A stretch of DNA of 64,000 nucleotides from contig NW_025407838.1 in the NCBI RefSeq assembly GCF_003324165.1, positions 625,389 to 689,388 of the forward strand, read 5' to 3'. This stretch comes from Naegleria lovaniensis. Taxonomy: Eukaryota; Heterolobosea; Eutetramitea; Acrasida; Naegleriidae. The stretch's first letter is position 1; the number at the start of each line of letters is the position of its first letter. Of the stretch, positions 9,248 through 57,991 are shown one piece after another. The notes beneath the pieces were generated by a model. The model worked only from the letters and a program-made list of their open reading frames with translations. It was not told the DNA's origin and did not search any database. The position numbers were made by a program, and so were the translations under genes.

Positions 9248-10999
9248 ATGGATTCTAGGATGAGTTTTTCGGAAACAGGGTCCTCACAAAAACATTACGT
9301 GAACGGAGATGATGATCTTCTCATTATTGATAACATCAAGAAGGAAGTAGTCAAGCTTCCCGAAGATGTGGCTCAAGAAAATAAGGATCATCCCAATAAT
9401 GCTGAAGAGGAATGGCCTCGTATTGATGATGATGAGAATGGAAGTCGAGTCCTTATTGTAAGAAGGAGCTCAACTTCGGCTTCACCCACTCCCTTCACCC
9501 AATCCGAATCGGATGGAGAGACATCGGGAGATTTGAAATCTTCTTCATCTCCATTGCAACTACATACATTGCAATTAAGTACAACGATTACCACACGCTC
9601 TTCTCATGAAAGTTTAAGCCCGAGTAGTGGTGGAGTGTTGACGATTGGACATTATGGACATGGTGGTACTGGTCATTCACCCAATCAAGGCAGCACAGAT
9701 TGTTCCTCACGACAACAACAGTCGGCGTCGTCCACTCAGAGGAGGAGAGCCTCTCCGAACCCTCCCAATGGTTGTGGTGGTACTTTGTCGTGTCTCAAGG
9801 ACGATTTCATAATACTGTACAAAATATTTACATTCCTGAGGTTTAAAGACTTAATTCGAGTGAGCAATGTATCGTCGTATTGGAGGAAAATTTTAAGGGA
9901 TGCAGCTCTCAATAATTGTTCCAATGAGAGCCATATTCGAAAGACTATCATGAAACAAGAATTTACAGACCTGTACGAAAGAGAGTGCAGGCGATTATGG
10001 CCGTTTAATTGTGACGTTTCGAGGTATCCCAAACAATCTCAACCAAACACCAATAACAGCAATTCTGAGAATCCAGTACCAATCATTATTCGACAGGACG
10101 AAGACGACGACCAAATTCAAAACAGACCATCCATCCTGGAATTGGATGTGGGAGGTTATAGAGCCATGTTAATAGATGAGAATTCGGAAAACGAACTGTT
10201 TCCATTCGTCATGTTAAAGTTTGCCAAAATGTCACGCAAGAGATATTTAAATTTTGTCGCAGCTTGTTCGTCATCGTCTCTAGACACCTCAAATTCAGGA
10301 ATCATGGATATAGGAACCGTGGAAATTAAGCTAGATAAGAAACATGCAGCAAAGGCGGCAGAAAATTTTCGATGTTTATGTACAGGAGAAAAAGGTCTGT
10401 CTTCTCGGTCCATACCCCTCACTCTCAAAGGGTCAACCATTCATAAATCGATACAGGCAACACTGATTCAAGGTGGAGATATTGAATATTCGGGTACAAG
10501 TGGTTGGTGGAAATGCCATAACTATTTTGGTAAGGATTGTTCTTCGCCGTCTTCACACAGCAACAACTGCAAAGAAGGTGATGGAAATGAGTCAATATTT
10601 GGAAAAACTTTTGAGGACCACTCGACACAACCAAATATTCACCATGCAGGAACTGTTTCTTTGGCAGTGACGAATGGTGACAACGAGTCATATGGTTCAC
10701 AATTCATAATATGTGTGAATCGATGCAAAGAACTGGATGGCAAGAATATTGTCATTGGGGAGGTGACCAAAGGTCTAGATGTTGTACGTAGAGTGGAAGC
10801 AGAAGTACTTGGATCCATGTTACCTTCAGCAACATCACAAAGCGCAGATCACCAAGATAATGTGGTTGTGTTTATCAAAGAATGCGGACAGTTGGGCTAT
10901 ACAGGTCCAAATTTTGAAGAGAGCGTTAAAGAGCAATTCCAAAACAAAAAACAGGCAGTCCCAGAACCAGTGAAATCAAGAACTTGCCTCATCCTTTGA
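9248..10999 (+). CDS. F-box and cyclophilin-like fusion protein with C-terminal CAAX box
   Basis: I choose the ATG at 9248 (583 residues); an in-frame TTG at 9188 is not a likely eukaryotic start. Residues 1-180 are acidic and Ser-rich. An F-box-like segment (DDFIILYKIFTFLRFKDLIRV ... YWRKIL, about 184-220) suggests binding to SKP1 in an SCF ubiquitin ligase. Residues about 355-550 are a cyclophilin fold: KAAENFRCLCTGEKG, LIQGGDIE, GSQFIICV, LDGKNIVIG. Key prolyl-isomerase positions are changed compared with CypA: the catalytic Arg in FHR is Lys here (IHK), the Phe in SQFFIC is Ile, and the Trp and His around the WLDGKH segment are Glu and Asn. Catalysis and cyclosporin binding are therefore doubtful. 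The protein ends CLIL, a CAAX prenylation motif of the geranylgeranyl type, so membrane anchoring is predicted. I infer a membrane-tethered substrate receptor using the cyclophilin as a binding module. Confidence 0.8.
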   Translation: MDSRMSFSETGSSQKHYVNGDDDLLIIDNIKKEVVKLPEDVAQENKDHPNNAEEEWPRIDDDENGSRVLIVRRSSTSASPTPFTQSESDGETSGDLKSSSSPLQLHTLQLSTTITTRSSHESLSPSSGGVLTIGHYGHGGTGHSPNQGSTDCSSRQQQSASSTQRRRASPNPPNGCGGTLSCLKDDFIILYKIFTFLRFKDLIRVSNVSSYWRKILRDAALNNCSNESHIRKTIMKQEFTDLYERECRRLWPFNCDVSRYPKQSQPNTNNSNSENPVPIIIRQDEDDDQIQNRPSILELDVGGYRAMLIDENSENELFPFVMLKFAKMSRKRYLNFVAACSSSSLDTSNSGIMDIGTVEIKLDKKHAAKAAENFRCLCTGEKGLSSRSIPLTLKGSTIHKSIQATLIQGGDIEYSGTSGWWKCHNYFGKDCSSPSSHSNNCKEGDGNESIFGKTFEDHSTQPNIHHAGTVSLAVTNGDNESYGSQFIICVNRCKELDGKNIVIGEVTKGLDVVRRVEAEVLGSMLPSATSQSADHQDNVVVFIKECGQLGYTGPNFEESVKEQFQNKKQAVPEPVKSRTCLIL

Positions 11000-13452: not shown

Positions 13453-14668
13453 TTAATACCTATCAATGAATCGATCTCTTTCATCAGCTCTTGCCAACCA
13501 TCCCTTCAAGAAGACTATAAATGACAAGTTCAATATCATGCACAAATTCCATGACAATATTATCATGATTAAAAAACATTTCACACATATTCAACCACAT
13601 AAAAATTTCACACAAAAATCACACATAGAAATCAAATGATCTGATGTGATAAATTTCAGAACAACACATACCTCTATTCTTACAAGTTGGACATCCCCAT
13701 CTCTTATAATCTGCTCTATGTTTCTCGTTCAAAGCACGAGCAAATTGTTTAGCATCTTGTCCATGATATCCACCCAATTCAGCAATATATTGTCTCGATC
13801 TTCCAGTTCCAGAATTCACTGCAATATCTGCACACACATAGAACGCAGGCATTGGAAGAGGATTACAACCTCCAGGTCCAAAATAATTTTGAATATACAA
13901 TTGAGCTGCACATTGCTTAAACACGACAGTATTCTTATCATAGGCATATTTGCAAAAATCAGCAGGATGACCATTGAAACCTCCCAATAATGGAGCAAAA
14001 ATTCCATTTCGATTATTCCAACATTGAGAAGGAATGACTCCCATGCATGTGTATCCAATTTTACCTTGGAATGAATTTCCAGAATCGCTGGCCCAGTTTT
14101 GACATTTACCTTCAGAACGGAAAATTTGAACAAGAGATTCCTCTGCCTTCTTACTATTGCTATCATTGTTGGAAGGAGGAGGAGGAGTTGAAGGATTCGA
14201 GTTGGCACATGCCATTTTCAAAAACTTGGCAGAAACCCATTGACCCGTAGCAATGCGTGCCCATTTAGAACCATCGGCAGCATTGGCAACTTCATAAACA
14301 GTGACTTTGGTTTCAGGTCCAATCGTTTTCACAATACTGGCACTTGGAGAGGGTCCGGAACGAACATTGAGAGCTCCTTGAACGTTGGTACATCTACTTT
14401 CAGGCCACATGGCATCTGATGTTGGTTCAAAAGATTCCAAATGATCCTCCTCTTCATGGTCATCTTCATTGACATTTAACAAGGAATCAGATAAACTATC
14501 AAACAAGTCCACTTTTGGAGTGGTTGTTGTGGTTTGAGAACCAGCAGCTTCGGAAGCACCTGAACGACGAGCTTGAATGAGTTGACGAAGCTCAGCGACG
14601 GTCAAGGCGTGTGCGTAAATGGCGAGAGTGAGTAAAAGCACACAGAGAAGGATGGAGTGGACTCGCAT
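13453..14668 (-). CDS. Secreted SH3b plus GH108-type lysozyme (2 exons)
   Basis: Start is the ATG at 14668, which opens a classic signal peptide (MRVHSILLCVLLLTLAIYAHA); the longer open frame upstream is not needed. Exon 1 is 14668-13672, donor GTATGT. Exon 2 is 13514-13453 and restores the family's C-terminal FLKGWLARA segment, giving 352 residues in phase. Residues about 93-152 form a bacterial SH3 domain (GALNVRSGPSPSASIV ... WVSAKFL), a cell-wall binding module. Residues about 170-352 match the GH108 (N-acetylmuramidase) pattern: IFRSEGKC with the catalytic-position Glu, CAAQLYIQNYFGP, DIAVNSGTGRS. Extra cysteines suggest disulfide stabilisation for secretion or phagosomes. The probable role is digesting peptidoglycan of bacterial prey. 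The domain pair is bacterial in style, so an old transfer followed by intron and signal-peptide gain is plausible. Confidence 0.85.
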
Positions 14669-22954: not shown

Positions 22955-24051
22955 ATGGGTGCTGGTGTTTCAATGACGACCTCGACTCGCATTCCAGCCA
23001 TGAACAACTCTGTTGCTCCCAGCCTCAACAACAATGGTCACTCTACTGCTGGCTCGTCTCGCTTACCCCTTACTTCCCATTTTTCACTTTCACAGCTCGA
23101 TGAAAGACACGATAATCGAGTTACCAAAACGATGACACGATCCCGATCAGACATTGTTTCTTCACACAACTCTCATCCAAGGACATTGAATCGACTGAAC
23201 AGTCAGATAGACAGACCAACAACGAATGATCTTCCCCCCCCCCCCCNNNNNNNNNNCCCCCCCCCCCCCCGCATGCATGCAGTATCCACATATCTACACC
23301 ACGTAAACCTACGTTACCTCCCTTAACTTCATCTTCATTACTCACACGTGCACTTATTTCAGGTATTGAGGATGAACATGACTTTACTCGAGTTGATTTA
23401 GACGATGAACCAGTGAGAAAGATCTCTTCTCGAAAGAGCTCACAATACACAACCTCTACAAGGAAGCCCTTAAACAACTCCCCTTGTGAATGGACTTGTT
23501 TGCCCTCTTCGAAGTTTCTTTCAGCTGACAGCATTTCCAACTCTACCTCACTTTCCTTAACAACCTATGACCATCAAGAAAATGAAGATTCCACAGAGGA
23601 TGAAACAAGTTCTGAAGAAGAGTTGGATTCATTTTCATATAACCCCTCTGCTTCCTTCTCTTCTCTCAAAAAGATGTTATCCAATGATTTGTATCAATCA
23701 CACACTTCTCGTTTTGCAACACCTGTTAAGTCTTCCAAAGTCATCAGATCGAGTCGAGATGAATTATTTCCTCATGATCCATCATTGTCATCAACTCCAC
23801 CAAAATCACATCACTTGAACATTGGAAACAACAAGTATTGTGGTCATTTTGGAAATTGTGAATATCGAATTATTGTAACACCTCCTCCTTATAGTCCCTC
23901 TTCAAATGCATCCATTTTGAACATTTCAAGTAAAACCATTGAGGAAGAAAGAAAAGAGAGACAGAAAATAATTCTCGAAAAGCGAAGAAAATTGTATTAT
24001 ATTCAAAGTTTAAGAAATATTTCAGCCATGTTTTCACCATTGAAAGAATGA
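22955..24051 (+). CDS. Putative N-myristoylated Ser/Thr-rich protein, cluster member 1 (contains assembly gap)
   Basis: ATG at 22955 gives MGAGVSM, a textbook N-myristoyltransferase site (Gly2, Ser6). The open frame is interrupted at 23247-23256 by ten N inside a run of C; the frame on the far side is offset, so the gap size is not real. After the gap the protein continues in parallel with member 2 (SSSLLTRALISGIEDEHDFTRVDL), to an acidic patch (STEDETSSEEELDS), then NCEYRIIVTPPPYSPS and a basic tail SSKTIEEERKERQK. No enzyme domain. I recognise no named family. It is 65-85% similar by eye to the next gene, so the two are recent tandem duplicates. A role as a membrane-tethered adaptor or phosphorylation target is inference. 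Confidence 0.75.
23234..23270. other. Poly-C tract with 10-N assembly gap
   Basis: Thirteen C, ten N, then fourteen C inside the coding region of cluster member 1. Compared with its neighbour, the C run replaces a segment of ordinary coding sequence. The run is probably a sequencing or assembly artefact, and the gap is unsized. Confidence 0.85.
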
Positions 24052-24356
24052 TGCAGTGACAGTTGCTAATTTTCCAGAATGAAATATGTCTTTCATAACC
24101 TACCTGAAAGATGAATCATTGGTAGAACATATCTGAAATGTGTTCAGAAAAGAACTCGAGATCTCGCTTGCTGTGGCAATACTAGATCACATGAATGAAC
24201 CTCAAGATCCAATTTCTTTTCACCGCCATCTTTTCACCGCCTTCCATTTGTGCCGTGTTAGTGAAAGTAGTTGTTGCCTTTTCACTCCAAAAGGAAAATA
24301 ATGGTTACCTTAGTGAAACTTTATCCACCACGCACCAATACACACGAGAGAGAAAA

Positions 24357-25433
24357 ATGGGTTCTAGTGTTTCAATGGCAACTTCAACTCGTATTCCAGC
24401 CATGAACGATTCCATTCCCATCAACAACTTGGGTGCAATGACTCACTCGAGACTGAATTCTCGTCGATTGAAAGCATCGAGTGAAATATCCGATGATGCA
24501 ACAACACATTCACCAAAATTTCCACTTAAACGCTCTCCTCTTTCAGACTCTTCCAATGACATCCAACGGACAGAGAAACCAACCATTAATGTCATTGAAA
24601 AGAAATCCCTAATTCCATCCTCACATGCAAATGTGATGTTCACACCACCTAAAAAACAACAAAGTCCATTACCAGACTCGTCGTCTTCATTACTCACACG
24701 TGCAATTATTTCAGGAATTGAAGATGAACATGACATTACTCGAGTCGACTTGGAGTGTGCACAACCAGTTGCAGAAATCTCTTCTCGAAGAAGGAGCTCA
24801 CAATATAGTACCTCTACCAGGCCTGAATCCTTAAACTCCCGTTATGAATGGACGAATTCAAATTCGACCTCTTCGACGTTTCTTTCTACTGACAGTATTT
24901 CCAACTCGAGTTCACTCATCTCTTTGACAGGTTCCAACGACCATTCATTGGAAGAAGAAGACTCAACAGAAGACGCAGATGAAACAAATTCTGAAGAAGA
25001 GTTTGATTCGTATCAACCAAAATCCTCAGTTTCCTTTTCTTCACTCAAAAAGATGTTATCCAAAGATTTGTATCCATCACACACTTCTCGTTTTTCAGCT
25101 CCTTCCAAAGTCATCCAAGCGAGTCGAGATGAATTATTTCCTCATGATCCATCATTGTCAGCAACTCCACCAAAATCACATCACTTGAATATTGGAAACA
25201 ACAAGTGCTGTGGTCATTTTGGAAATTGTGAATATCGAATTATCATAACACCTCCTCCTTATAGTCCCTCTTCAAATGCATCCATTTTGAACATTTCAAG
25301 TAAAACCATTGAGGAAGAACGAAATGAAAAAAAGAAAATAATTCTCGAAAAGCGAAGAAAATTGTATTATATTCAAAGTTTACGAAAGAGTCCACTCATG
25401 GTTTCATCATCAAGAATATTGTCGAAAGAATAA
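24357..25433 (+). CDS. Putative N-myristoylated Ser/Thr-rich protein, cluster member 2
   Basis: I place the start at the ATG at 24357 (MGSSVSMATSTRIPAMN, 358 residues) although the frame is open to 24195, because member 1 starts the same way and the DNA just upstream (CCACGCACC..TACA) is conserved between the two. Features in order: myristoylation site; Ser-rich region; SGIEDEHDITRVDLE; FLSTDSISNSSSLISL; an acidic stretch EEEDSTEDADETNSEEEFDS; FSSLKKMLSKDLYPSHTSRF; HDPSLSATPPKSHHLNIGNNK; NCEYRIIITPPPYSPS; SKTIEEERNEKKK; and a basic end. The last 110 residues are almost identical to member 1. Function unknown; the protein is probably disordered and membrane-associated. Confidence 0.78.
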   Translation: MGSSVSMATSTRIPAMNDSIPINNLGAMTHSRLNSRRLKASSEISDDATTHSPKFPLKRSPLSDSSNDIQRTEKPTINVIEKKSLIPSSHANVMFTPPKKQQSPLPDSSSSLLTRAIISGIEDEHDITRVDLECAQPVAEISSRRRSSQYSTSTRPESLNSRYEWTNSNSTSSTFLSTDSISNSSSLISLTGSNDHSLEEEDSTEDADETNSEEEFDSYQPKSSVSFSSLKKMLSKDLYPSHTSRFSAPSKVIQASRDELFPHDPSLSATPPKSHHLNIGNNKCCGHFGNCEYRIIITPPPYSPSSNASILNISSKTIEEERNEKKKIILEKRRKLYYIQSLRKSPLMVSSSRILSKE

Positions 25434-25897
25434 TGTGGTGTTGCTTTGACACAGTAATTGATTGTAGATCAAATCAGTTGTCCCAATAAATTAACACCTG
25501 TACATTAAAAGGAATAGATTTATATTGAAAGTAACCAATTCTGGAATTGTGAGTGGCAATCATACATGAGGAAAATAAGGAAACGGTTTGTAACATTGTC
25601 TGATTGCGAAATGTGAAATCACAATAATGAACCTTAGATCAATAATCTTGCCATTGTAAACTTCCAAATCTGGAAAAGCTCGAGTTTTGGAATCTTTTTA
25701 AACAACCAAAAGCACACCTCTTTCATGGGAAACCTATTTAGATTTTCTCCATTCTGATCCATCATCCCCACTCTACCTCTTCCATTCCAGTCACTTCATT
25801 TACACCAACCCATCGGATACATTCAAAATTCTTTTTCTCAGAAAAACAATTACAACCATATATTAATATTAACACTTACTCTCTCTCGACATTGAAC
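25434..25897. other. Intergenic region upstream of LEA-like gene
   Basis: About 460 bp, AT-rich. It must hold the 3' end of cluster member 2 and the promoter of the LEA-like gene. No open frame of note. Confidence 0.45.
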
Positions 25898-27070
25898 ATG
25901 AAAAGAGTTTCCTTCTTACGAGTTGCAATGCAACAAGTGTGCCATTCCCGAGGCAACTACTTTCCAAGCAATTCTCGTGCAGCAATGTTTAGTTCCTCTC
26001 TCGTTCCACACGACGAGCAAGTCAGCGGAGATGTCTATGACAAGGGAAAGAAGGTGAATGAAACTTCTTCTTCAACTTCAGCCTCTCAAAAAGATCGAGA
26101 ACAGCAATTTCTCAAGAATAATCCCACCGTGCAATCGGTTTCAACATCTGATAAATCTCCAAGTGGTATTCGAAAAGAAAAGGAACAAGAAAGTTCCTTC
26201 TTTGACAATCCCAATCCAATTCCTAATTTGAACACGACTGAAAAGATGGCAAACAAAACTCCAATTGGATCCTATGTTCCTGGTTCGTATGTGGCTGGCT
26301 CTACAGAGGATTCAGACATGTCAGACATTCCAAGTCCTCATATGGGAAAACCCATTGATCGAGATCCCACTCAATTTTTCGGATTTGACAATAATATTTA
26401 TGGAGATGATTTGTATACAGCCAAAGATGCTACTGCCAAAGCTCTTGGAACTGACAAGAGTTTCGACACTGGATCGAGTGAGGAATGGAAAGGATCTCCA
26501 ATCAATAAGGATCAATGGAGTGACACCAAAGAAAAGGTCAAAGATCAATTCAGTGATACTAAGGAACAATTGAAGAGTCAATGGAGTGATACCAAAGAAA
26601 AGGTAAAAGATCAATTCAGTGACGCCAAGGAACAGGTCAAGAAGAATGTTTCTTCGTCTGAAAATTGGACTTCTGGTTATGACGATGTAGCTGGCTCCTC
26701 TTCGACCGCTGACACTCTCTATAACACAGCCAAAAATGTCAAGGATCAAGTGAAAGATGTGGCCAGTGATGTGAAGGAAACGATCAAAGATAAGGCAAGT
26801 AATCTCTTTTCACAAGATACCAAGGACGCTGCGTATGAAGCCAAAGAAAATCTCAAAGATACGGCTAGCAATTTGTTTGAATCTGGAAAGGACAAGTTCT
26901 ATGAGACGAAGGGTTATACTGAGGCCTATTTGGAAGAAGGTGAGGAGAAGGCCAAGGACACTGCTGAATCTGTGAAAGATACTGTGAAGCATATCAAAGA
27001 TAAGGTGGTCAATAAGGTCTCTGAATGGAAGGAAAATATTGTTGGTGGTAATCAACCTTCTAAACAATAA
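25898..27070 (+). CDS. Mitochondrial LEA-like (group 3) stress protein
   Basis: ATG at 25898 gives 390 residues. The first about 35 (MKRVSFLRVAMQQVCHSRGN...) are basic and free of acidic residues, as in a mitochondrial presequence. The C-terminal half is built of 11-residue amphipathic repeats: QWSDTKEKVKDQFSDTKEQL occurs in near-tandem, then KNVKDQVKDVASDVKETIKDKASNLF and KDAAYEAKENLKDTASNLF. This is the pattern of group 3 late embryogenesis abundant proteins, which fold into helices on drying and protect membranes and enzymes. A role in cyst desiccation tolerance is inferred. It interrupts the cluster of myristoylated proteins and is unrelated to it. Confidence 0.78.
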   Translation: MKRVSFLRVAMQQVCHSRGNYFPSNSRAAMFSSSLVPHDEQVSGDVYDKGKKVNETSSSTSASQKDREQQFLKNNPTVQSVSTSDKSPSGIRKEKEQESSFFDNPNPIPNLNTTEKMANKTPIGSYVPGSYVAGSTEDSDMSDIPSPHMGKPIDRDPTQFFGFDNNIYGDDLYTAKDATAKALGTDKSFDTGSSEEWKGSPINKDQWSDTKEKVKDQFSDTKEQLKSQWSDTKEKVKDQFSDAKEQVKKNVSSSENWTSGYDDVAGSSSTADTLYNTAKNVKDQVKDVASDVKETIKDKASNLFSQDTKDAAYEAKENLKDTASNLFESGKDKFYETKGYTEAYLEEGEEKAKDTAESVKDTVKHIKDKVVNKVSEWKENIVGGNQPSKQ

Positions 27071-27262
27071 TGAAAAGATGTTAATGGCATCTAATTAATT
27101 TAAATAATAAATACGACTACTACTCGTGTGGTGTTATTATCATGTGGATGCTGTTGCAATTGAATATGTGACAAATGTCTCTCGGTGTTATGAATACATT
27201 GGAGAAGCGTCACAGAAGGCCATGACACTCTTCTTCTTGGTGCATTAGCTTTAACCTTTCAA

Positions 27263-28006
27263 TTAAGCCTTTGTTAAATGACTCATCAGGTCCAAAAAGT
27301 TTGAATATTCCAAAATGTCGTGTTCATTCTTGGAGTTTTTAGCATTCTTTTGTATCATGCAAACTCCTTCATAAAATCGCTTCAATTCCCGTGTGGTTTC
27401 CTTGTCAACATCAATGCAAAGTTGTGGATTAATTTGACGACAGAATGCAATTTTTCCTTTCACTGTTTCACAAAATAGAATTTTCACCGAGTTGAAAAAT
27501 CCATACTTTTTCTCCAATAAATCTTGATAGTAATTTTGTTCCTCATCCGATGCAACTTGTACAATAATATACACATCACAATCGTTGGCCAATTTTTTAA
27601 GATGTTTCATACGTTCATCATTGGCATCATCCGTTTCGGTTGTGGAAGAAGCAATTTCCATGATACTCTCTTGTTGTTGATTGGTCGAGCGATTTTCATA
27701 CAATTCATGATCTAACAAGAAAGCCTTTGCATTGAGGCAAACTTTTCCAAATAATCCCGATGATTTACCTGATGAAGACCGATTTTGTTGTTGCGTGGAT
27801 TGTCCCGAAGATGTATTTCGTTGAGCATCTTCGGAGGAGGGATCTTTTCGTTTGAAAATTACTAACAAGAGAGGCAATAGCCCAATAATGATTACGGCAT
27901 ACCATATAATATTCATGATTCGTGCTGCACGGGGATTCTTTTGAGTGTATGTATTGCTGAGGGTGTTGATGAAAGTTGTTGTAAAATATTGATACGAGTC
28001 ATTCAT
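27263..28006 (-). CDS. PEX22-like peroxisome membrane protein
   Basis: The ATG at 28006 gives 247 residues; the frame is open to an ATG at 28114, which would add 36. A membrane span near residues 32-52 (NIIWYAVIIIGLLPLLLVIF) is followed by a basic linker and a soluble domain. That domain (CLNAKAFLLDHE, LKKLANDCDVYIIVQVASDEEQ, VKILFCETVKGKIAFCRQINPQLCIDVD) follows the PEX22 pattern known in plants and fungi: a DxYLxxQVxSDEE strand, then LFCxTxxGxxxxxRQLxPxxxID. PEX22 anchors the ubiquitin-conjugating enzyme PEX4 at the peroxisome for recycling of the import receptor PEX5. The family is very divergent, so the call rests on motif order rather than overall identity. Confidence 0.7.
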   Translation of the reverse strand: MNDSYQYFTTTFINTLSNTYTQKNPRAARIMNIIWYAVIIIGLLPLLLVIFKRKDPSSEDAQRNTSSGQSTQQQNRSSSGKSSGLFGKVCLNAKAFLLDHELYENRSTNQQQESIMEIASSTTETDDANDERMKHLKKLANDCDVYIIVQVASDEEQNYYQDLLEKKYGFFNSVKILFCETVKGKIAFCRQINPQLCIDVDKETTRELKRFYEGVCMIQKNAKNSKNEHDILEYSNFLDLMSHLTKA

Positions 28007-28383
28007 GATGATTATGTGTTGGATACAATGAAAGAAATTAACGAATTTTGAACACATTCCGATGACCGATGGATGGATATAATAATAAGAATAATTTTTA
28101 AAATCATTCATCATAATGGTTGTATGATATTAACAACATCCAATCGGAATGCAACCATCACAAAATTAATCACCCGTCGGATCATGTGATTTAACCATCT
28201 CCATATCAACCAAAACATCTCTAACAAAAAAACACCTACATGACTTTGCGTATGATTGCCAAAATATTGGACCAATGAATCATGCAAAATTTTTTTTAAT
28301 AATTAATTTTGTAAATTGAATTCCAGTGCTGTTGTCACCCTTCAAAATTCAAATAATGAAGGAACCTTATTGAAGTACATGCT
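28007..28383. other. Intergenic region upstream of PEX22-like gene
   Basis: About 380 bp, AT-rich, between the minus-strand PEX22-like gene and the relic of the myristoylated family. No gene seen. Confidence 0.45.
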
Positions 28384-28579
28384 CGACGATGTAGCCATGA
28401 CTGGACTCTTTCGTAAACTTTGAATATCATACAATTTTCTCGAATTATATTTCTTTTTTTCATGAAGAATTTTTCTTTTCGTTCTTCCTCAATCGCTTGT
28501 TGAGTGAACTCGAGCTGGATATACTGTCAGTGGAAAGAAACATCGATGAAGTCGAACTTGAAAGAGTAAAATCAGAAGC
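28384..28579 (-). pseudogene. Decayed copy of the myristoylated-protein family
   Basis: Read on the minus strand, 28579-28507 encodes SDFTLSSSTSSMFLSTDSIS..., matching the FLSTDSISNSSSL region of member 2. The sequence then jumps directly to the 3' end of the family (ATTGAGGAAGAACGAAA, then ATATTCAAAGTTTACGAAAG) in a shifted frame. The acidic region and the E-x-x-I-x-[VI]-T-P-P motif are missing. It is therefore an internally deleted, frameshifted relic, lying just 3' of member 3. Confidence 0.75.
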
Positions 28580-28809
28580 GGAAGAAGCATTTGTTTTTTG
28601 GGAGTGAATTTCAGTTCCTGTAGTGACATGTGAACTCGTGTTGTTGAAAAATGTCATTCGTTCTAGGCAAGTCAATACTTGACAGGCCCAAGTGTGAAAC
28701 ACAGATGATCTACGGGTGAGACTGCATGTTTGTTGGTATGTGAAGGAGAGATTTTGTTTCGAGGTAGTGAGGAATGGTAACTGAACGAAAGCCAGCTCAT
28801 CTCCATTCG

Positions 28810-29793
28810 TCATCGTTTTACATTTTCTTTCGAACAAAGTCTCAATGTCTTCTTTTTTTCACACCGCTCCATGTCAACAGTTTTGGATCCGTTCGATTTC
28901 ATTTCTGCTGCGAACGAGGGAGGTGTAACGACAATTCGTATTTCATCATTTCCTTCATTCATGTCCAAAGTCATGGATTGTTTTAACAATCCTTTTTGGA
29001 GGGACTGAAACACTTGTGAACGAATAGAACATTTGTTGTAAAGTACAGGGATAGAAACATCTTCTTTCACAGGCATTGAGGATCGAAATGAATTGCTGGA
29101 GCCAGAGAATTCAAAACTGGAACCGGTATCTATGGGAAACTTGTCAAAATTACTGGCATTGCCGTTGTCTTTGGATAAATCAGTTGAAGTAATGACAGAA
29201 TCAAATTGATCTTGTGTTGGTACATGATCGACCAGAGTGGTGTCTTGATCTTCCAACAGTAAGATTCGTTTTTTAACCAAGATGTTAATATAATGAGACG
29301 GTGAGTGGTTAGAGAGCGAGGATTGATGATGCTTCAATATTTCATTTGGAGGGTGATGTAAATGAAAATCATGTCGATGTGTATGAGTTCGAAGATGATG
29401 ATGAAGATGTTGTGAATGGCGATGGTTGTGTTCTGTTAACGGTAGAGTTTTCTTCTTCTTTTTTCGTCTTTCAAGGCAATGCAGGAGGACCGAAGAGTGC
29501 GTCGAATGAACGGTTTTTGAATGAGCTTGATCCCTTAATGCAACATCATGATCGATAAAAACCGAATGGCAAGATCTTTTCCGGTCATCCACGATTTCTT
29601 GTAATGAACGAGAGAGGGTTGGAATTGGATCCTTACTCGAATGAATCATGCTTGGTTGATTCATGGAAAGTCTAACATGATGAGCCTTAGAAGAAGGAGG
29701 TTTCGTGTGCCGAGTATTCAACTCAACTTGAGGTGCATGAAAGGGTGAAATTGAAGTCGACATTGCAGTGGTGGTGGAGGCCCCTGCACCCAT
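28810..29793 (-). CDS. Putative N-myristoylated Ser/His-rich protein, cluster member 3
   Basis: ATG at 29793 (MGAGASTTTAMS), 327 residues. Myristoylation site with Ser6; long Ser/His-rich middle; a basic KKKKKT patch; near the C-terminus NDEIRIVVTPPSFAAE followed by SKTVDMERCEKKK. This is the same motif order as members 1 and 2 (E-R-I-I-V-T-P-P, then SKTxxxER). Outside these motifs it is strongly diverged. It shares with members 1, 4 and 5 a short SxSxQEIV / SRSDIV-type element in the N-terminal third. Function unknown. Confidence 0.72.
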   Translation of the reverse strand: MGAGASTTTAMSTSISPFHAPQVELNTRHTKPPSSKAHHVRLSMNQPSMIHSSKDPIPTLSRSLQEIVDDRKRSCHSVFIDHDVALRDQAHSKTVHSTHSSVLLHCLERRKKKKKTLPLTEHNHRHSQHLHHHLRTHTHRHDFHLHHPPNEILKHHQSSLSNHSPSHYINILVKKRILLLEDQDTTLVDHVPTQDQFDSVITSTDLSKDNGNASNFDKFPIDTGSSFEFSGSSNSFRSSMPVKEDVSIPVLYNKCSIRSQVFQSLQKGLLKQSMTLDMNEGNDEIRIVVTPPSFAAEMKSNGSKTVDMERCEKKKTLRLCSKENVKR

Positions 29794-29937
29794 TTTTCTT
29801 GCTTGAAATTGTGCTTTTCATGTAAAGGAGAAATGGGATAACAAAAAGTCAATATCCACATTTGGACTATTTTACATTTAGATTTTTTATTGAATTCAAC
29901 ACAATAAAATGCTTCATGGACTTCCATGAAATTGGGA

Positions 29938-30555
29938 TTAAGGCACTGTGGGTGGAGTGATGATAATCAAAAATTCTTCCCGTTCATAATGGTTGGACTG
30001 ATGTTTCAATGAAAACTTTAGGGGTTGTAGCCGTTTTTGTGTGTTTGCAACATCTCTTCCGGAGGATGGTCTATATTTCACCTTGCGAACATGAAAACTG
30101 TCAATAACTTGATGCTCCAACGGATCGTCCTCCTCTTGCAGTTCATTACAAGTGGTACTTTGATGATATATTTGAGTGGAAGCAATCTGTTTTGTTTGAT
30201 GTTTTTTGGAATGATGAGGAGGAGGACCATTAGACTTTGTACCCTCTGAAAATAGTGGTTGAACAAATGTAAAGGAACGACCTCGCGTTTTATGAGATTG
30301 ATGAATCAACTCCTGAGAGTAAGTGGTAGAGGGGGAAGACTTGGGCAAAGGATGATGATGCGAACGTCCTGTGCTCGCGTTAGTAGATGACTTGATTGGA
30401 ACATGAATCAAATCTTGATAGGAGTATGAGCTTTTTCGAGACTGTTGAGATGGCGAGTATTTGGAAAATACATCTTTCAGGTCATCTTGATGTTGGCCTT
30501 CGTCCATCTTCATGTGCCGCATTGAGGCGGAAGAGCTGCTCACACTGGATCCCAT
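29938..30555 (-). CDS. Putative N-myristoylated Ser-rich protein, cluster member 4
   Basis: ATG at 30555 (MGSSVSSSSASM), 205 residues, the smallest of the cluster. Myristoylation site with Ser6. Two SYxxELI/DLI-type elements (SYSYQDLIHVPI and TYSQELIHQSH). The protein ends exactly in the family motif: EREEFLIIITPPTVP-stop, so the basic tail of the others is absent. The 144-bp spacer to member 3 and the same strand suggest tandem origin. Confidence 0.7.
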   Translation of the reverse strand: MGSSVSSSSASMRHMKMDEGQHQDDLKDVFSKYSPSQQSRKSSYSYQDLIHVPIKSSTNASTGRSHHHPLPKSSPSTTYSQELIHQSHKTRGRSFTFVQPLFSEGTKSNGPPPHHSKKHQTKQIASTQIYHQSTTCNELQEEDDPLEHQVIDSFHVRKVKYRPSSGRDVANTQKRLQPLKFSLKHQSNHYEREEFLIIITPPTVP

Positions 30556-30867
30556 TCATAGTAAGTATTGAATCAGCGCCATGAAGAAGAGAAGGACTGA
30601 GAACTATTTTTTAGGGTGGTCAGTGTGTTCGAAAAGGTCATTGTTCATTTCACGAATGGTTGTGTTCGTCGTTGAAAGGTCATCAAAATTCGGCATTTAC
30701 GAGACATTGTTTTCGCCTTAATGGGCGTGGGTATAACAGGAGGAGTTCGCGACCACAATTGGATACGAAGGAATTTATGGCCACACAATTGGACATTTTG
30801 AAACGTGTTAAATCAGGTTTGACTATAGCAATGGGATTCCAAGTCTGTCTGAATATTGATACCCTAA

Positions 30868-32295
30868 TTACACATCATCACTGGAATCGAGATCTGATTT
30901 TGACAACAGGCGAGGTAGTGCATCTTCCTCCATACTCCTGGATCGAACATGTGGATGAAAATGATGATGATTCGACATGTGATGATAGTTCTGATGAGAA
31001 GGTTTTTGATGACGTTGTGCATGATGGTGGTGAGGATGATGTGAATGCACTTGAAGAGATTGATTCTTTGAAATGTGATAATGTTTCTTGTGGGGATGGA
31101 ATCGATGCTTGGGTATCACACTGGGAGGAAATGGAGGGTCAGTCACAGTAATATGACATTCTTCATTGCCCAAGTTTGTTTGTGAATTGGAGCTGTCTTG
31201 TTGTTGTAATGGCGAATCTGGAGTTGGACTGATGGAACGATGTGAAGTTGTAGTGGTATTAAGGGAGCTTTGAGAATCGGATTGAAAGAATTTGTAAGGT
31301 GAATACGAACGCTGAAAGGGAAAGTCTGGAATTCGTTGTGAAGCTGCAGCACTTGTATTGGGCAAGTGACGCGAATCATGACTTTCACCAATGACTGGAG
31401 TTGAAACGCTGTTTGAGGTTGTGACCACATGAGAAGTAGCAGAGGCGCATTCTTGCCATACAGGCGCTTCTCTTCTTCTATGATTCATATGAGGCAAATG
31501 ATTGGAGGGCATCTTTCTATGATTGGTGTAAGAATCAGATGGCACGTAATTCGGATGTAAATGTGTACTGTGGCTGCTGGTTGATTTCGTTCTTCCCAAC
31601 GATGATCTGGTTGAGGATGATGCTTGAGTATGTTCACTCACAGTTGGAGGAGGAGGAGCTAAATAATGTGGACTGGTAGTTGTTGTTGTTGAATTATTAT
31701 AACTCATTGGCTTTACATAAATATGATCCGGAAGGGAAGCATATCGAGAGATTTTGTTTTTTGCTTTGGTGGCAGTATCGTCGGTTTCATGCGAATGGTC
31801 TTCTCCATTGGATGATGAGGACTTGTGAGTCGTGTTCGAATGATTCATTGTCGACGAGGATAACGAAGACGTTGAGGAAAACACTAGAGAATGAGGTTTC
31901 ATAAATTCCAGCTGGATGTGTTGAGGCTCATTAAGGCTCGAGGTTCCGAACACTTCTGGATGATGTTGATACATTTTCAGAGGATGAAACGGATACGAAT
32001 GATTCACGTGAATGGAAGAGGGCAGTGAGGAGGAGGCTTTCAGTGAGGGTCGCGTGGAACGACTCGACGAGTTCGAAATGCTGTGGTGGAACGACTCGTG
32101 AATGGTTTTCGTTGAAGATGTCCAATCATTCTTCTTTGGTTGTAGTTTGATTTCAGATGAAAAGCCTTCATGTGCAAGAAGCGAGTCGGATGAGACTTGT
32201 TGTTGCTGGGATTGATGAAACACAGAAGATGGATCAGCCACTCCACCATTGAGTGGATGAAGCGATGATGAGGAAGAAGATGAGGCTGAGCCCAT
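30868..32295 (-). CDS. Putative N-myristoylated Ser/His-rich protein, cluster member 5
   Basis: I prefer the ATG at 32295 (MGSASSSSSSSLH, 475 residues), which restores the MG...S signal of the other members; the frame's first ATG at 32334 would bury it behind 13 residues. Low-complexity Ser/Thr throughout, a SLPDHIYVKP element, the family motif NEECHITVTDPPFPPS at about residue 390, then an unusual His-rich tail (HSHHPHHHHAQRHQ) that could bind metal, and an acidic end (SDLDSSDDV). Function unknown. Confidence 0.68.
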   Translation of the reverse strand: MGSASSSSSSSLHPLNGGVADPSSVFHQSQQQQVSSDSLLAHEGFSSEIKLQPKKNDWTSSTKTIHESFHHSISNSSSRSTRPSLKASSSLPSSIHVNHSYPFHPLKMYQHHPEVFGTSSLNEPQHIQLEFMKPHSLVFSSTSSLSSSTMNHSNTTHKSSSSNGEDHSHETDDTATKAKNKISRYASLPDHIYVKPMSYNNSTTTTTSPHYLAPPPPTVSEHTQASSSTRSSLGRTKSTSSHSTHLHPNYVPSDSYTNHRKMPSNHLPHMNHRRREAPVWQECASATSHVVTTSNSVSTPVIGESHDSRHLPNTSAAASQRIPDFPFQRSYSPYKFFQSDSQSSLNTTTTSHRSISPTPDSPLQQQDSSNSQTNLGNEECHITVTDPPFPPSVIPKHRFHPHKKHYHISKNQSLQVHSHHPHHHHAQRHQKPSHQNYHHMSNHHHFHPHVRSRSMEEDALPRLLSKSDLDSSDDV

Positions 32296-32334
32296 ATAAG
32301 CGAGTCTCTTTTTTGAGGTAAAAGCACCCGGCAT

Positions 32335-32636
32335 GAAGTGTTATTTTGGCCGAGACCAGTTCCAAATTGGGGTGATGTACGTTTTTGACACAATTCGATT
32401 GGCCATAGGATCTCAATTTCTTAATGAAAGAGGATGTGACAGTTGCGTCGCATAGTCCCATAGGTCTCTCAATAATATCAAGTATTTATAAAAATCTCTT
32501 TCATATAGCAAGACGTTACTTACCTTTGTGTTGCTTAACTCTCATGCTTCTCAGCCTTTCTGCTTCAAGGTGATCCAATTTAAGAATAATTTTCAAAATT
32601 TATTAAATAATTGGACACTAGTAATTGTCCATAGAA
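32335..32636. other. Short intergenic region
   Basis: About 300 bp between the 5' end of cluster member 5 and the 3' end of the elongase gene. Nothing recognisable. Confidence 0.4.
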
Positions 32637-33895
32637 TTACTCGTGCTTCTTCTTTCCAGAAGTGGCTGCTGGTGCAGAACCAAAGTATTTTCTAACAAAG
32701 AAGTCAACAAACAAATACAAATAAGCACCATACATGGCAACACAGCTCAACATAATTTCATATGGAGCCTCACAACGACAATTCTTCTCAAGAGGCACGC
32801 CAGCTTCCTTATTCTTGAAGAACTTGTAAGCAAAGATCGAGTTGAAAACAATACCGAAAATCATTTGAGAAATTTGACCAACAGTCAACAAAAAGTTCCA
32901 GCTTGGTCTATAGCCCAACTCGGTCAATGCATAATAGTAGTACATGAAAGTGTGAATCAAAGCATTCATAATAATAAAGCAATATCCGACAGCATATTGA
33001 GTGTAGACAGCATACCAGGTGAAGAGTAAAACAGTCAAATGGTGGAACCAGTGCAAGAATGGGACCTTACGATCTGGATGCTTGATAACCAACAAGACAG
33101 TGTCAATGAGTTCCAAATACTTGGAGAGAGCGAAAATGTAAGCCCAAACAATGTGTGGAAGGCCTTGTTCAGGACCTATATGGCGGTGAGGGAAGTGCCA
33201 ATATGTGTGTGTGTCATTATGGGTCATTCATGTGTGCACAATTTCATGTCAACATTGACGACAGGATCATCGGGTTATTATCATTGCAGGTTGGTATCCA
33301 AGAGGTTGCAGTAGATGTGAAAATAAAACATCACAGGATCACACAAAAACAAGTAGGCAAAAACACAATCATTTCGAAGCAAATATAAACACAAAGAAGC
33401 AATTTCACCATTCCACTTACCAAGCACGTGCTTTTCTTCACAAATCAAAGCTGGTAAATCCCATTCGTACTCATTCTTCAAATAACTGAACCAAGGAATA
33501 GCAGCACCCAACAACATGGCTAAACTGAAAACACTCAAGAACATATTCCACAAGAACATGACCATCTTCAAGATTGGTCTCTTTGCGTCCTTAGCTGGAA
33601 CTGGCAACAACTTGGGTAAAACAAAAACAATGAACAAGTAAACAATCACAGAAGTAATTGGCAGCACGTTGGTATACTGTTTCATGAGGAAAGTTTCGTC
33701 CATAGTAAGTCTAAACTTTTGGTGATATTGGGTAGCGAGGAAATTCATATCCAAAAGTTTGGCTGGCTCTGCCATGATGAGTTGGCAGAACTCACGAAGT
33801 GGTCCCATAAGAAGGAGAGGCATTGTTGTTGTGGTTGTTGTACTAGTGTGTTGATAACTACTATTACTATTGTGTTTGTGAGGGAAAGGCATCAA
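32637..33895 (-). CDS. ELO-family very-long-chain fatty acid elongase (2 exons)
   Basis: Exon 1 is 33895-33421 with donor GTAAGT; exon 2 is 33175-32637 after a 245-bp intron ending TATAG; 337 residues in phase. Later ATGs at 33823 or 33775 are also possible starts. The ELO signature KVPFLHWFHHLTVLLFTW (HxxHH box) and NALIHTFMYYYYAL are intact, with about six to seven membrane spans. The family is the ER 3-ketoacyl-CoA synthase that condenses acyl-CoA with malonyl-CoA; the sequence style is that of the ELOVL6-type (saturated/monounsaturated substrates). The C-terminus KKKHE offers a KKxx ER-retrieval signal. Confidence 0.92.
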
Positions 33896-41328: not shown

Positions 41329-44300
41329 ATGGAAAATAAGGGACTCATATTTTTTCCAGCGTTGTTTGTTGGAATCTCGTTACTTTTTTGCTTACTACTA
41401 CACAATACTAAGGTGGTACAGTGTGCTAATTTCGAATACTATATGGAAACTCTTGCCGGCACGGTAGGTTACCTGTAACAATTCATCATGCGAACATGAG
41501 AATAATTTTTTCATCATCACACGGATTCGATATGATATAGGGAGGGAATGGCTTTGCTGGAGAAAATTTGACTTCATCTCAGTCTGGCATGTCCGGAGGC
41601 TTATCTTTGTTGCTAGATCCCACTCAATCCTTCATTTACTATTCAGACTATTATAGACTAAGAAGGGTTGATTTGAATACCAACATGGTGACTACGGTAC
41701 TTGGTACAGGGGTTAGAGGTTATAGGTATGTTATTGCGTTTCATGTATACAGACTCACATCATTACTTCTATGTAGCACTTCAACGGGGCTAGCAGCAAA
41801 TGCACAAGCATTATATTCTCCAAATGGACTTGCATGGTGGAGATCGAATTCCAAGCTCCTTGTAGGAGAAAATACTGCCATTAGACAAATTGATATGACT
41901 ACTGGATATGTTAGCTTATTGGCAGGTAAGTCAGGTTGTTGTTGAATAATAGCAATCATCATCAAACGAATATTGTTGTGCATATATTTCTTCCAATAGG
42001 AGGTACTTCTTCTGGAACAATAGACCACACTAACCCATTGTCTGCAAAATTTTCTTCAATATCTTGCCTATTTGTTCATTCAAATGATGACATTTATGTA
42101 TGTGATGGTTCTAGGATCAGAAAAGTAGATGGTTCAACATTGGCAGTAACAACTGTAGCAGGAGGAGCAAGTAGTGGTACAGTTGTAGAGGGAAGTCCTG
42201 TTAGCAGTACCTTATTTAATTCAATATATGATTTGAAAATTGTAAGTGTCTTTGAATTGTTGTTTTAGATAACGAGGAACATTTAAGGACAACCAAGGAA
42301 ACATTTTAGTATTAGTAAGTAATTCAATTTTTTATGACATTACTAATATACTTCGAAAAAAAGGACACGTTCAGAGTACGAAAAATTACAAATAATGGTG
42401 GAACATTGACAACAGTGAACACACTTGTTGGAACTGGAGGAACTGGATCTCTTGCATATCCTTCTAAAATGTTTTATGATAGTATTAGTGGAGATTTATA
42501 TATTACACAGTAAGTATTAGTATGAGCAAAAATAAGTCGACTTGAATTGAGTTGCTCATAGAAACTATTACATTTCAAAATATTCTTCTGGAGGTACTTT
42601 TACACATGTACTGGGAACTGGCCAATATTACTCAACAGGTATGTTTGTTATAGATTAAATTTAGTTACGGAATCATCATTTTCATCATTAACAAGCTGAT
42701 GGCTCTATTACATCTGGTACATCTGTTGCGCTTGCGGATGTGCGTGGTATTGCTATCGATAGTGCTGGCGTTATTTATTTCTCAGAAGCTTTTGGATCCA
42801 GACTTAGAAAATATACCGGTTCTATTCTAAGCTCGATCATTAATACTGCTAGTATTTTTGTAAACTATAATCCTGCAAAACAATCACCAATTAGCTCTTT
42901 TAGAGCGCAAGTGATGGATCGTGATGGAAACTTTTATTACAGCGAATCAGATTCCGCTTGCATCAAATTTTACAACATGACAAGCCAGTTAATCAAAACA
43001 TATGCAGGTAAGTTTATTCATCAATTACATTTACGAGACTCTTTTTGTCAATATTTAGGACAATGTTTCATTTCATCATATCAAGCACCTTCTTCTGCTG
43101 CTGGTTTGAATGGTCCAGCCATTATGGCAAGGTAAAGTTCAAACATATTAACAATTTCCAACACGAATTCTCATACTCTTTCAGATTTAACCAACTAAGT
43201 GGACTTGCGATAGATGATAGTGGAGACTTGATTATTGCTGAACAAGGAACCTACTCAATTAAAAAAGTTTCAAAACAAACGGGTATTATAATTTTGGTTG
43301 CTGGATCAGGAAGTAGTACAGACTGTGCTGATGGCACTGCTCCAACTGCTTGTGGGTTGAATGTAAGTTAATGTTTGAAAATGTGGAAAAGAGTTACAAT
43401 CATACTCGGGCAGTTTCCTCGTGCTGTAGCTTTTTATGATGGAGAATTATATTTCTCTGTCTATCAGAAAATAAGAAAAATTTCAAAAGTAGATGGAAAA
43501 GTTTATACTGTTGTAGGAGGAGGAGGTTCAAATACAGATAACATATTAGGAACAGCATCAAGTGTAAGTTTATTTTACTACATATTTGTTACTTTAATAG
43601 AGAATGATATAGGTAACATGTGGTAAGTATTTTTCAAAACAACAACAACGATTTTTCAACCACCATGAATCTTCTACAATTAAGGAACAACACTTCAAAT
43701 CACACCGAATGGTCTTCTATACTACGTGGACACCTCATTGAGCAAAATTAGAGTTTATAATATCAATTCTGGAATTGTAAACACTATTGGCAGATCGTTG
43801 TCAGTAAGTAATAGAATGTCAAACTATAATTCTTACTTTTAACAGTACGTTGCTGATATGGGTTGGGCATTTTCTATCAATAATGAAGTATTTTTTGGAA
43901 CTGGACAGCAATACTTGAAGAAAATAGATAGTGTTGGAAATCTGTATTCTGTAGCTGGAAATGGAATGGGTACATGTAAGTGCATGATTTTAAGAGCTTA
44001 ATTCAATATCATAATAACACTTAATATCACTTAATTCTTCTTGTTGAACAGCTGAAAATGCTAATGCAATTAATACAGCATTGACTTACATTTACAGCAT
44101 TGCATGGTCATCTCAAAGAAAAGAATATATTACTTTCGAAGCGTATAGAATTAGAAGAATGTATTTGGTGTGTTCTACCGGATGGCAGGGTGATTTTTGT
44201 GATGTTCCAGTATGCTCATCTATTTTAGCTTCTGATCCCAGTGTTTGTTCAGGAAATGGAAATTGTAGCTCTCCCAACAATTGTCAATGCTTTCCCAATT

Positions 44301-47300
44301 ATTTTGGAGCTAATTGCTCCGTTACCACTTGCTTTGGAGTTTTAAGTACTGATCCTACTACCTGCAACGGCAATGGAAATTGTTCAAGTCCGCATAGTTG
44401 TGTGTGTGAGCAAGATTATTATGGAAACTCTTGCAATATCACTACATGCTTTGGAAGATTTTCAAATGAATCATCTGTATGTGGGTCCAAAGGAAATTGT
44501 ATTTCCAAAGATCAATGTACATGTTATGACGGATATATTGGTAATCAATGTGAAATTCCAATATGTAATGGAACATTGGCAAACGACACAAAAGTTTGTA
44601 ATGGACATGGATCATGTATTCTTCGAGATACTTGTGCTTGTAACGAAACATATTTTGGAAATGTATGTGAGTTTACATTGTGTTTCGGCGTGCAATCCAA
44701 CTCCTCTCTAGCATGTAACTCACATGGACAATGTAGCAGCTTCAATAATTGTACATGTGACCATAATTACTTTGGAGCAAATTGCTCTCTCACAACTTGT
44801 TTCGGAATTAGATCTGATAACAATTCTGTTTGCAGTAACAATGGTGAATGCTTGCAGAATGACCGTTGCTCGTGCTACCCTCACTTCTATGGCGACAAGT
44901 GTGATTTGATGAAATGTTTTGGAACGATGTCAAATGATTCATTAGTTTGCAGCGGTCATGGATCTTGTGATGGGTTTGATAATTGCACTTGCTATGAGAA
45001 TTATTTTGGATCGAATTGCTCTATCACAACCTGTTTTGGAATTAGATCTGACAATAATTCCGTTTGCAACTCACTTGGAAAATGTACCAGCGTCAATAAT
45101 TGCAGCTGTGATTTGAATTATTTTGGATCGAATTGCTCTCTCACCACTTGCTTTGGAGTTAGATCTGATAACACATCAGTTTGCAACTCACATGGACAAT
45201 GTACCAGCTTCGATAATTGTACATGTGATTTGAATTACTTTGGATTGAATTGTTCTCTCACAAGTTGTTTCGGAATTTCAAGCAATGAAAGTTCAGTTTG
45301 TTCAGGTTCTGGGCAATGTATTGATTTCAACTCGTGTGACTGTCACGAATTTTATGAAGGTATGAACTGTTCATTGAGATATTGCAATGGATTATCGAGA
45401 AACAATTCAAATATTTGTGGAGGACATGGAACATGTCAAGATGATGGAGTTTGCAATTGTCAAAATGGTTGGGCAGGTGTAAATTGCTCGATACCCTATT
45501 GCTTTGGAATTATTGGTAATGACTCATCTGCGTGCAATTCACATGGACAATGTACCAGCTTCAATAATTGTACTTGTGACCACAATTATTTTGGAACAAA
45601 TTGTTCTCTCACCACTTGTTTTGGGCACGCCAGCAACGACAGCGATGGTTGCTCAGGTAATGGTGTCTGTATTGACTTTAATACCTGCAATTGTAAAGAA
45701 TTGTTTGAAGGCTACAACTGCTCGTTTAAATATTGCAATGGGATGTCTAGAAACAATTCAAATGTTTGTGGAGGACATGGAACATGTCAAGACGATGGAA
45801 TTTGCAATTGTTATAATGGTTGGGTTGGTTCAAACTGCTCGATACCGTATTGTTTTGGAATTATTGGCAATGACTCATCTGCCTGCAATTCTCACGGACA
45901 ATGTACCAGCTTCAATAATTGCAGCTGTGATTTGAATTACTTTGGAACAAATTGCTCTCTCACCACTTGCTTTGGAGTTAGATCTGATAACACATCAGTT
46001 TGCAACTCACATGGACAATGTACCAGCTTCGATAATTGTACATGTGATTTGAATTACTTTGGATTGAATTGTTCTCTCACAAGTTGTTTCGGAATTTCAA
46101 GCAATGAAAGTTCAGTTTGTTCAGGTTCTGGACAATGTATTGATTTCAACTCGTGTGACTGTCACGAATTTTATGAAGGTATGAACTGTTCATTGAGATA
46201 TTGCAATGGATTATCGAGAAACAATTCAAATATTTGTGGAGGACATGGAACATGTCAAGATGATGGAGTTTGCAATTGTCAAAATGTTTGGGCAGGTGTA
46301 AATTGCTCGATACCCTATTGCTTTGGAATTATTGGTAATGACTCATCTGCGTGTAATTCACATGGACAATGTACCAGCTTCAATAATTGTACTTGTGACC
46401 ACAATTATTTTGGAACAAATTGTTCTCTCACAAGTTGTTTCGGAATTTCAAGCAATGAAAGTGCAGTTTGCTCAGGTTCTGGGCAATGTATTGATTTCAA
46501 CTCGTGTGACTGTCACGAATTTTATGAAGGTATGAACTGTTCATTGAGATATTGCAATGGATTGTCGAGAAACAATTCAAATGTTTGTGGAGGACATGGA
46601 ACATGTCAAGATGATGGAGTTTGCAATTGTCATAATGGTTGGGCAGGTGTAAATTGTTCGATACCCTATTGCTTTGGAATTATTGGCAACGACACTGCTA
46701 ATACATGCTCAGGAAACGGTAACTGCATCTCAAACAATGTATGTGAATGTTTTTCGGGATGGCTGGCAAGTAACTGTAGTGAGTCAACATGTTTTAACAT
46801 ATCAGGAAGTTCTGCATGCAACTCTCATGGAAAATGTATTTCAAAAGATGTGTGCTATTGTGATGCAGATTGGGTGGGTGCAAACTGTTCTGTACCAATT
46901 TGTTTTGGTCAGTATGGCAACAGCTCTAACACGTGCTCTGGAAACGGAGAATGCATCTTGCCAAACTATTGTGCGTGTAATAATGGATACTATGGTCAGA
47001 GTTGTAACACATATGACTGCTTTTATGTGAGAATGAATGAAACGACAACATGCAATGGTAATGGCAACTGCACAGCTCCAAATATATGTAATTGTTCTCT
47101 CAATTATTTTGGGCAAGAATGCGAAACCACAACTTGTTTTGGTATCAATAGTTCAGATCCTTTTGTTTGCAACGGCCATGGAAACTGTTCTAGGTTTGAT
47201 CACTGCTCTTGCTACACAAATTACACAGGAAACAATTGCTCTATTAGAGTAGAGACTGGTTCTACAGCTAATAACAGCAACTATGTAGCTGATGTTCAAT

Positions 47301-57956: not shown

Positions 57957-57991
57957 TGTAAAGAAACTATAGTAATAATATTTACAAATTG
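57957..57991 (-). repeat. Split direct repeat B1 (internal)
   Basis: Identical 35-bp partner of B2. Contains the stop codon of the recombinase. Confidence 0.8.

Follow-up and report, generated by a model that had tools for sequence, protein, structure and literature searches.

A cluster of fast-diverging Naegleria lovaniensis genes shares one peptide that may dock calcineurin

Introduction

What unites five neighboring genes that have diverged almost beyond recognition, and what might the one peptide that they share be doing? The question is raised by a 64,000-nucleotide stretch of the Naegleria lovaniensis genome (contig NW_025407838.1, positions 625,389 to 689,388; hereafter the window, whose own numbering we use throughout), in which five open reading frames (ORFs) within 22955–32334 encode Ser/Thr-rich proteins. 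Two of these ORFs (members 1 and 2) run along the plus strand and the other three (members 3–5) along the minus strand. An earlier reading of the letters alone (the sequence-only reading) had taken them for a fast-evolving, lipid-anchored family whose conserved peptide docks to a common partner. We find that the five genes do form a small, real family, which diverges fast and keeps one conserved peptide. A common docking partner is plausible, and a candidate can now be named from the sequence: calcineurin, the Ca2+/calmodulin-dependent phosphatase. Certain animal proteins dock calcineurin through a handle that the peptide resembles, and the family may therefore park calcineurin on membranes. 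That the peptide is a PxIxIT-type calcineurin-docking peptide, carried by a locally duplicated, mostly disordered and N-myristoylated anchor family, seems to us to have somewhat less than an even chance of being right. The rules for docking to calcineurin derive mainly from animals and fungi.

Results

Five open reading frames share one peptide

Member 1 (MGAGVS start; 22955–24051, plus strand) is split within a poly-Pro stretch by a 10-N assembly gap (23247–23256). Because the gap, at its face value of 10 bases, shifts the frame, the N-terminal piece (22955–23246) and the C-terminal piece (23257–24051) were analyzed separately. Member 2, read from MGSSVS, covers 24357–25433 on the plus strand. 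On the minus strand lie member 3 (MGAGAS start; 28810–29793), member 4 (MGSSVS start; 29938–30555) and member 5, read from MGSASS (30868–32295). Members 2–5 are 205–475 amino acids long.

The conserved peptide, located in each case by motif and profile search, is GNCEYRIIVTPPP in member 1 (23851–23889, plus), GNCEYRIIITPPP in member 2 (25221–25259, plus), GNDEIRIVVTPPS in member 3 (28915–28953, minus), EREEFLIIITPPT at the extreme C-terminus of member 4 (29947–29985, minus) and GNEECHITVTDPP in member 5 (31132–31170, minus). All five motif peptides listed in the sequence-only reading were found exactly as written. Its consensus, E-x-x-I-x-[VI]-T-x-P-P, proved slightly too strict: it describes members 1, 2 and 5, but members 3 and 4 read T-P-P-S and T-P-P-T, and what all five conform to is E-x-x-I-x-[VI]-T-x-P. 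Numbered so that Thr is position 6, the peptides of members 1–5 are YRIIVT-PP, YRIIIT-PP, IRIVVT-PP, FLIIIT-PP and CHITVT-DP. The triplet G-N-x precedes the peptide in every member except member 4, and SKT(I/V)xxER is limited to members 1–3, where it had been said to occur.

A 13-column profile built from members 1 and 2 and scanned over 69,581 six-frame windows placed member 3 (score 46.5), member 5 (35.5) and member 4 (29.5) at ranks 3–5, followed by the next window at 21.5. Local shuffles matched the scores of members 3 and 5 in 0 of 1000 cases each and that of member 4 in 11 of 1000; once member 3 had been added to the profile, the score of member 4 was matched by 2 of 1000. In a blind four-way motif search of members 2–5, the best block of width 12 scored 195 against a shuffle mean of 122.5 (sd 9.6; 0/300 shuffles as good), and the same block was recovered at width 10 (0/300) and width 8 (3/300). 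Two of the six pairs tested, 2-3 (0/200) and 2-4 (1/200), beat their shuffles; the pairs 2-5 (34/200), 3-4 (22/200), 3-5 (80/200) and 4-5 (24/200) were indistinct from them. When the proteins were simply aligned, the only invariant columns were four from the motif (E, I, T, P) and one further Pro. Among 27 ORFs of at least 150 amino acids, the pattern ..I.[IV]T.P is present in all four family ORFs (members 2–5, with the MG internal to the ORF in members 2 and 5) and in 1 of the 23 others (hypergeometric 2.85e-4). No second shared motif emerged from members 2–5 (140/200 and 94/200 shuffles equally good), and a Pfam scan of seven pieces gave neither a match at its model's cut-off nor a kinase domain. 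The four-way search, the profile ranks and these two negative results bear out the idea of a fast-diverging family with one conserved peptide.

It could still be that members 1–3 are related while the peptides of members 4 and 5 reflect chance or bare ancestry and have no docking role. The trio of members 3–5 did no better than shuffles (91/200), member 4 reached just the 11/1000 given above, and recent exchange may account for how nearly identical members 1 and 2 are in the region of the peptide. Beyond the gap, member 1 is 71% identical to member 2 over 240 alignment positions. DNA identity between the two, taken in 60-column blocks, is 0.90–0.97 across 23671–24030 (matching about 25050–25400 in member 2) and 0.30–0.82 outside it, except for one block at 0.90 (23338–23397), and the synonymous divergence (dS) is 0.11 in the C-terminal block versus 0.53 in the rest. 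This near-identical tract, newly seen in our analysis, suggests gene conversion or recent sequence exchange. Given that appearance, and with dS low there too, we reject the identity around the peptides of these two members as separate proof of constraint. Against chance stand the ranks of members 3–5 and the gap that separates them from the next window, the shared MG start, the shared cluster and the enrichment among ORFs, and we consider this explanation improbable. For members 4 and 5, whose common origin with the rest the sequence-only reading had inferred, the profile search, the MG start and the clustering jointly support kinship, by the shuffles more firmly for member 5 than for member 4.

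A possible calcineurin-docking peptide

The pattern hydrophobic1-x-I-x-[IV]-T describes all five peptides, with Ile3, Ile/Val5 and Thr6 in every member and Arg2 in members 1–3. In the PxIxIT motif, residues 1, 3 and 5 are buried by calcineurin; in AKAP79 an Ile occupies the Pro1 pocket of the human enzyme, and Arg or Lys at position 2 improves the binding of PVIVIT to it (PMC6728138). In CABIN1, PEITVT is followed by PPTP, each residue of which matters in cells (PMC9166766). The C16orf74 peptide (DIIITPPTPT) was the top binder of its panel, with a half-maximal inhibitory concentration (IC50) of 1.17 µM, and two designed Pro-less peptides still competed, weakly (IC50 57 and 69 µM; PMC9928118). 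In the C16orf74 protein, also called MICT1, Gly2 is required for the plasma membrane and PNIIIT for calcineurin (PMC12170882), and from this pairing of acyl signal and docking peptide we drew an anchor-plus-handle mechanism. On this proposal the conserved peptide would dock calcineurin as a PxIxIT-type edge strand, with [Y/I/F/C]-x-I-x-[V/I]-T at docking positions 1–6 and then x-P as in CABIN1 and C16orf74; an N-terminal acyl chain would hold the phosphatase at the membrane; and the disordered, Ser/Thr-rich body would serve as a local calcineurin substrate or as a carrier of other partners. Myristoylation, docking and anchoring are the steps that we infer.

We compared the members with known docking peptides. 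A 9-mer profile of the C16orf74, CABIN1, AKAP79 and TRESK peptides, run over 16,322 windows in 50 ORFs, placed members 3, 4, 2 and 1 at ranks 1–4 and member 5 at rank 12; for members 2–5, respectively, 13, 2, 2 and 288 of 1000 of their own shuffles did as well. With a 6-mer core profile of six natural sites, members 2, 3, 1, 5 and 4 ranked 3, 4, 7, 46 and 49 of 16,478. A calcineurin B orthologue has been reported from Naegleria gruberi (PMC4415241), and the listing in PMC7350353 includes a calcineurin B. A PDB search with a stretch of calcineurin A returned 26 distinct sequences, none named Naegleria in a table that shows molecule names, not organisms; a PDB search with a 27-residue peptide of member 2 gave 0 matches up to E 10.

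As a separate observation, the C-terminal piece of member 1 and member 2 each carry a second TPP stretch, PSLS(S/A)TPPK, about 24–28 residues before the main peptide. It has Pro1 and a weak position 5; the 9-mer calcineurin profile places its two copies fifth and sixth, and CABIN1 alone places them first and second.

Our best reading, by analogy, is that the family would work like C16orf74 (calcimembrin/MICT1) without being its homologue. C16orf74 is likewise disordered, with a Gly2 acyl signal and an IxITPP-type peptide, and is a membrane-bound calcineurin binder (PMC12170882, PMC5584151, PMC11070784, PMC9928118). Unlike members 2–5, it is a vertebrate microprotein of only 76 amino acids; its Pro1 and adjoining LxVP (the composite LxVPxIxIT) are not found in the family, which has Glu at −1 instead, and nothing outside the short peptide points to homology. 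CABIN1 shares the core ITVT followed by PP, with ITVT recurring in member 5 and xTPPT in member 4, but has Pro1, and the passages on CABIN1 mention no acyl signal (PMC9166766). The PIAIIIT site of AKAP79, a membrane-located calcineurin anchor, also puts a residue other than Pro, an Ile, in the position-1 pocket (PMC6728138, PMC5653234), but that site is followed by DTE rather than PP, and AKAP79 has an LKIP site in addition (PMC5653234). Since the family differs from canonical PxIxIT peptides at Pro1 and −1, and from C16orf74 in LxVP and size, we regard it as a possible variant rather than a member.

Evidence against calcineurin and other readings of the peptide

Several observations weigh against calcineurin. 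Pro1, canonical in the PxIxIT pattern, is present in none of the five members, and Glu stands at −1 in all of them. Asp or Glu at −1 strongly cut binding to human calcineurin in three Pro1 scaffolds, the flank data for the AKAP79 scaffold being qualitative only (PMC6728138). No strict LxVP was found in six pieces, with relaxed forms in two of the five members, and a PxIxI match that does have Pro1 (KPTINVIEKK, member 2) sits outside the conserved peptide. With the vertebrate profile, member 5 was no better than its own shuffles. CABIN1 and C16orf74 were picked after the motif had been seen; without these two TPP-bearing peptides the ranks drop to 12, 33, 52, 57 and 172, and TRESK as the only template gives ranks 217–907.

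The same Glu bears on a second reading, in which the peptide attaches by strand addition to an unnamed partner other than calcineurin. The invariant Glu and the G-N-x-E lead would belong to the site for that partner, and any likeness to calcineurin peptides would be down to chance in so short a motif. An invariant residue that human calcineurin disfavors at −1 (PMC6728138) would then be explained, as would the G-N-x lead, which has no counterpart in the calcineurin peptides compared. On the other hand, the most constrained positions, I3, V/I5 and T6, are those of PxIxIT, and the trailing x-P recurs in CABIN1 and C16orf74 (PMC9166766, PMC9928118). We take this other partner to be a serious possibility, though one well short of probable.

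Thr-Pro, present as TPP in four of the five members, also invites the view that the peptide is a phosphorylation site read by a kinase, either an AGC-kinase turn motif or a proline-directed site ([I/V]TPP). The turn motif has an [I/V]-T-P-P core, and two turn motifs (Akt and PKC) rank members 2, 1, 4 and 3 as 1–4 and member 5 as 12, equal to the calcineurin set. The profile test alone does not separate these two readings, a tie that must also be counted against calcineurin. However, the turn motif belongs to a kinase tail and acts in cis, on the kinase that carries it. Two findings make the turn-motif reading less likely: the scanned pieces of the family have no kinase domain, and member 5 reads TDPP, so that Thr-Pro is not conserved. 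A phosphosite would also leave the invariant Glu and Ile3 unexplained. We judge phosphorylation to be quite improbable as the role of the peptide. Improbable in the extreme is a SUMO-interacting or WW-binding motif: SUMO-type runs (four residues, three of them aliphatic) occur in members 3 and 4 and PPxY in members 1 and 2, but each pattern is thus confined to two of the five members. Patterns for LC8, B56 and RVxF gave no match in the site stretches.

A probable N-myristoylation signal on proteins predicted to be mostly disordered

MGxxxS stands at the start of all five proteins, as the sequence-only reading had proposed, but it is not at the first ATG throughout. The first in-frame ATG after a stop is that of the MG in members 1, 3 and 4, and an earlier in-frame ATG is present in member 2 (24195, where its ORF opens) and in member 5 (32334, 13 codons earlier). 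An M-G-x-x-x-S pattern with residue sets at positions 3–5 of our own choosing gives five hits in a six-frame reading of the window, one for each member. Of 63 MG dipeptides, 13 passed a PROSITE-like filter; Ser6 was found in seven of these, five belonging to the members and the others lying outside the family, at 14044 and 50351. The DNA just 5′ of the MG codons is alike in members 1 and 2 but has a 2-base indel, and the extension of member 2 from 24195 is therefore probably untranslated, that is, not coding. Going by this sequence signal, the family proteins are probably N-myristoylated. Upstream of member 4 we noted an ORF of eight codons (30556–30582, minus) whose stop abuts the ATG; reinitiation control is possible, as is transcription that starts downstream.

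Ser and Thr make up 21–29% of the protein pieces. The two members folded with AlphaFold2 are predicted to be mostly disordered: 443 of 475 residues in member 5 (no alignment) and 299 of 358 in member 2 (two sequences) fell below 50 in the predicted local distance difference test (pLDDT), which was also low around the peptide in both. The sole confidently predicted helix of member 2, residues 318–343 (25308–25385, plus; pLDDT blocks 96 and 95), begins right after the SKT common to members 1–3. A basic amphipathic helix after the peptide is not supported, the hydrophobic moment being 0.12 versus a shuffle mean of 0.34.

Codon usage told us nothing as a coding test: the in-frame score was near zero in members 3, 4 and 5 (0.018, 0.017 and −0.031) and in the pre-gap piece of member 1 (−0.041), and for members 2, 4 and 5 and that same piece a different frame scored higher. 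The longest ORF in 28800–32400 has 488 codons, against a maximum of 216 and a mean of 83 in 300 base shuffles; members 3 and 5 therefore exceed every shuffle, and member 4 (205) lies inside the shuffle range. Sub-threshold Pfam matches to DUF4632 (0.084, member 2), PI31_Prot_C (0.39, member 4) and Pect-lyase_RHGA_epim (0.014, a short ORF beside member 3) were judged to be chance. When viral contigs were searched for relatives of member 2, seven stretches matched a pattern and none was confirmed.

A decayed sixth copy and its implications

Beside member 3, on the minus strand, 28379–28582 is a decayed sixth copy without the motif, also newly seen here. Two DNA segments resemble member 2 (66 of 82 and 93 of 121 positions match; E-values 5e-17 and 9e-22 in a search of a 731-base stretch). 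They match in different frames, and the part of member 2 that holds the peptide has been deleted between them. The cluster therefore gains and loses copies.

More specifically, and only tentatively, the sequences may describe lineage-specific, multi-copy, N-myristoylated calcineurin anchors, independent of vertebrate calcimembrin, that use a docking variant with a hydrophobic residue for Pro1 and an invariant Glu before it. If so, the calcineurin groove would have to prefer something different at −1, the docking rules could be tested directly on the naturally occurring variants at positions 1 and −1, and a gene cluster that gains and loses copies would control Ca2+ signaling locally at membranes. 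The design that pairs an acyl anchor with a docking peptide would then have emerged in a eukaryote very distant from animals as well, and disordered proteins that otherwise could not be annotated would acquire a named partner. Within the open-licence literature searched, we found no paper on both PxIxIT and Naegleria, which has no bearing on papers outside it.

Neighboring genes and other features of the window

Between member 2 and a Pex22-like gene (27263–28114, minus) lies a repetitive protein of the KDQFSDTKEQ type (25898–27070, plus), with Pfam matches below their cut-offs, which looks like a LEA protein. Another neighbor of the cluster is an ELO fatty-acid elongase (32637–33227, minus) that may extend into the ORF at 33281–33892. 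Elsewhere in the window, 13619–14668 (minus) matches a bacterial-type SH3 domain and glycosyl hydrolase 108 (lysozyme-like) and is a candidate gene of bacterial origin, and 57982–59001 (minus) matches Phage_integrase (tyrosine recombinase; 6.9e-08) and is perhaps derived from a mobile element. A single ORF at 9248–10999 (plus) combines an F-box with a cyclophilin-type isomerase, and 44159–52024 (plus) encodes a very long Cys-rich protein in whose translation EGF-like repeats can be seen by eye.

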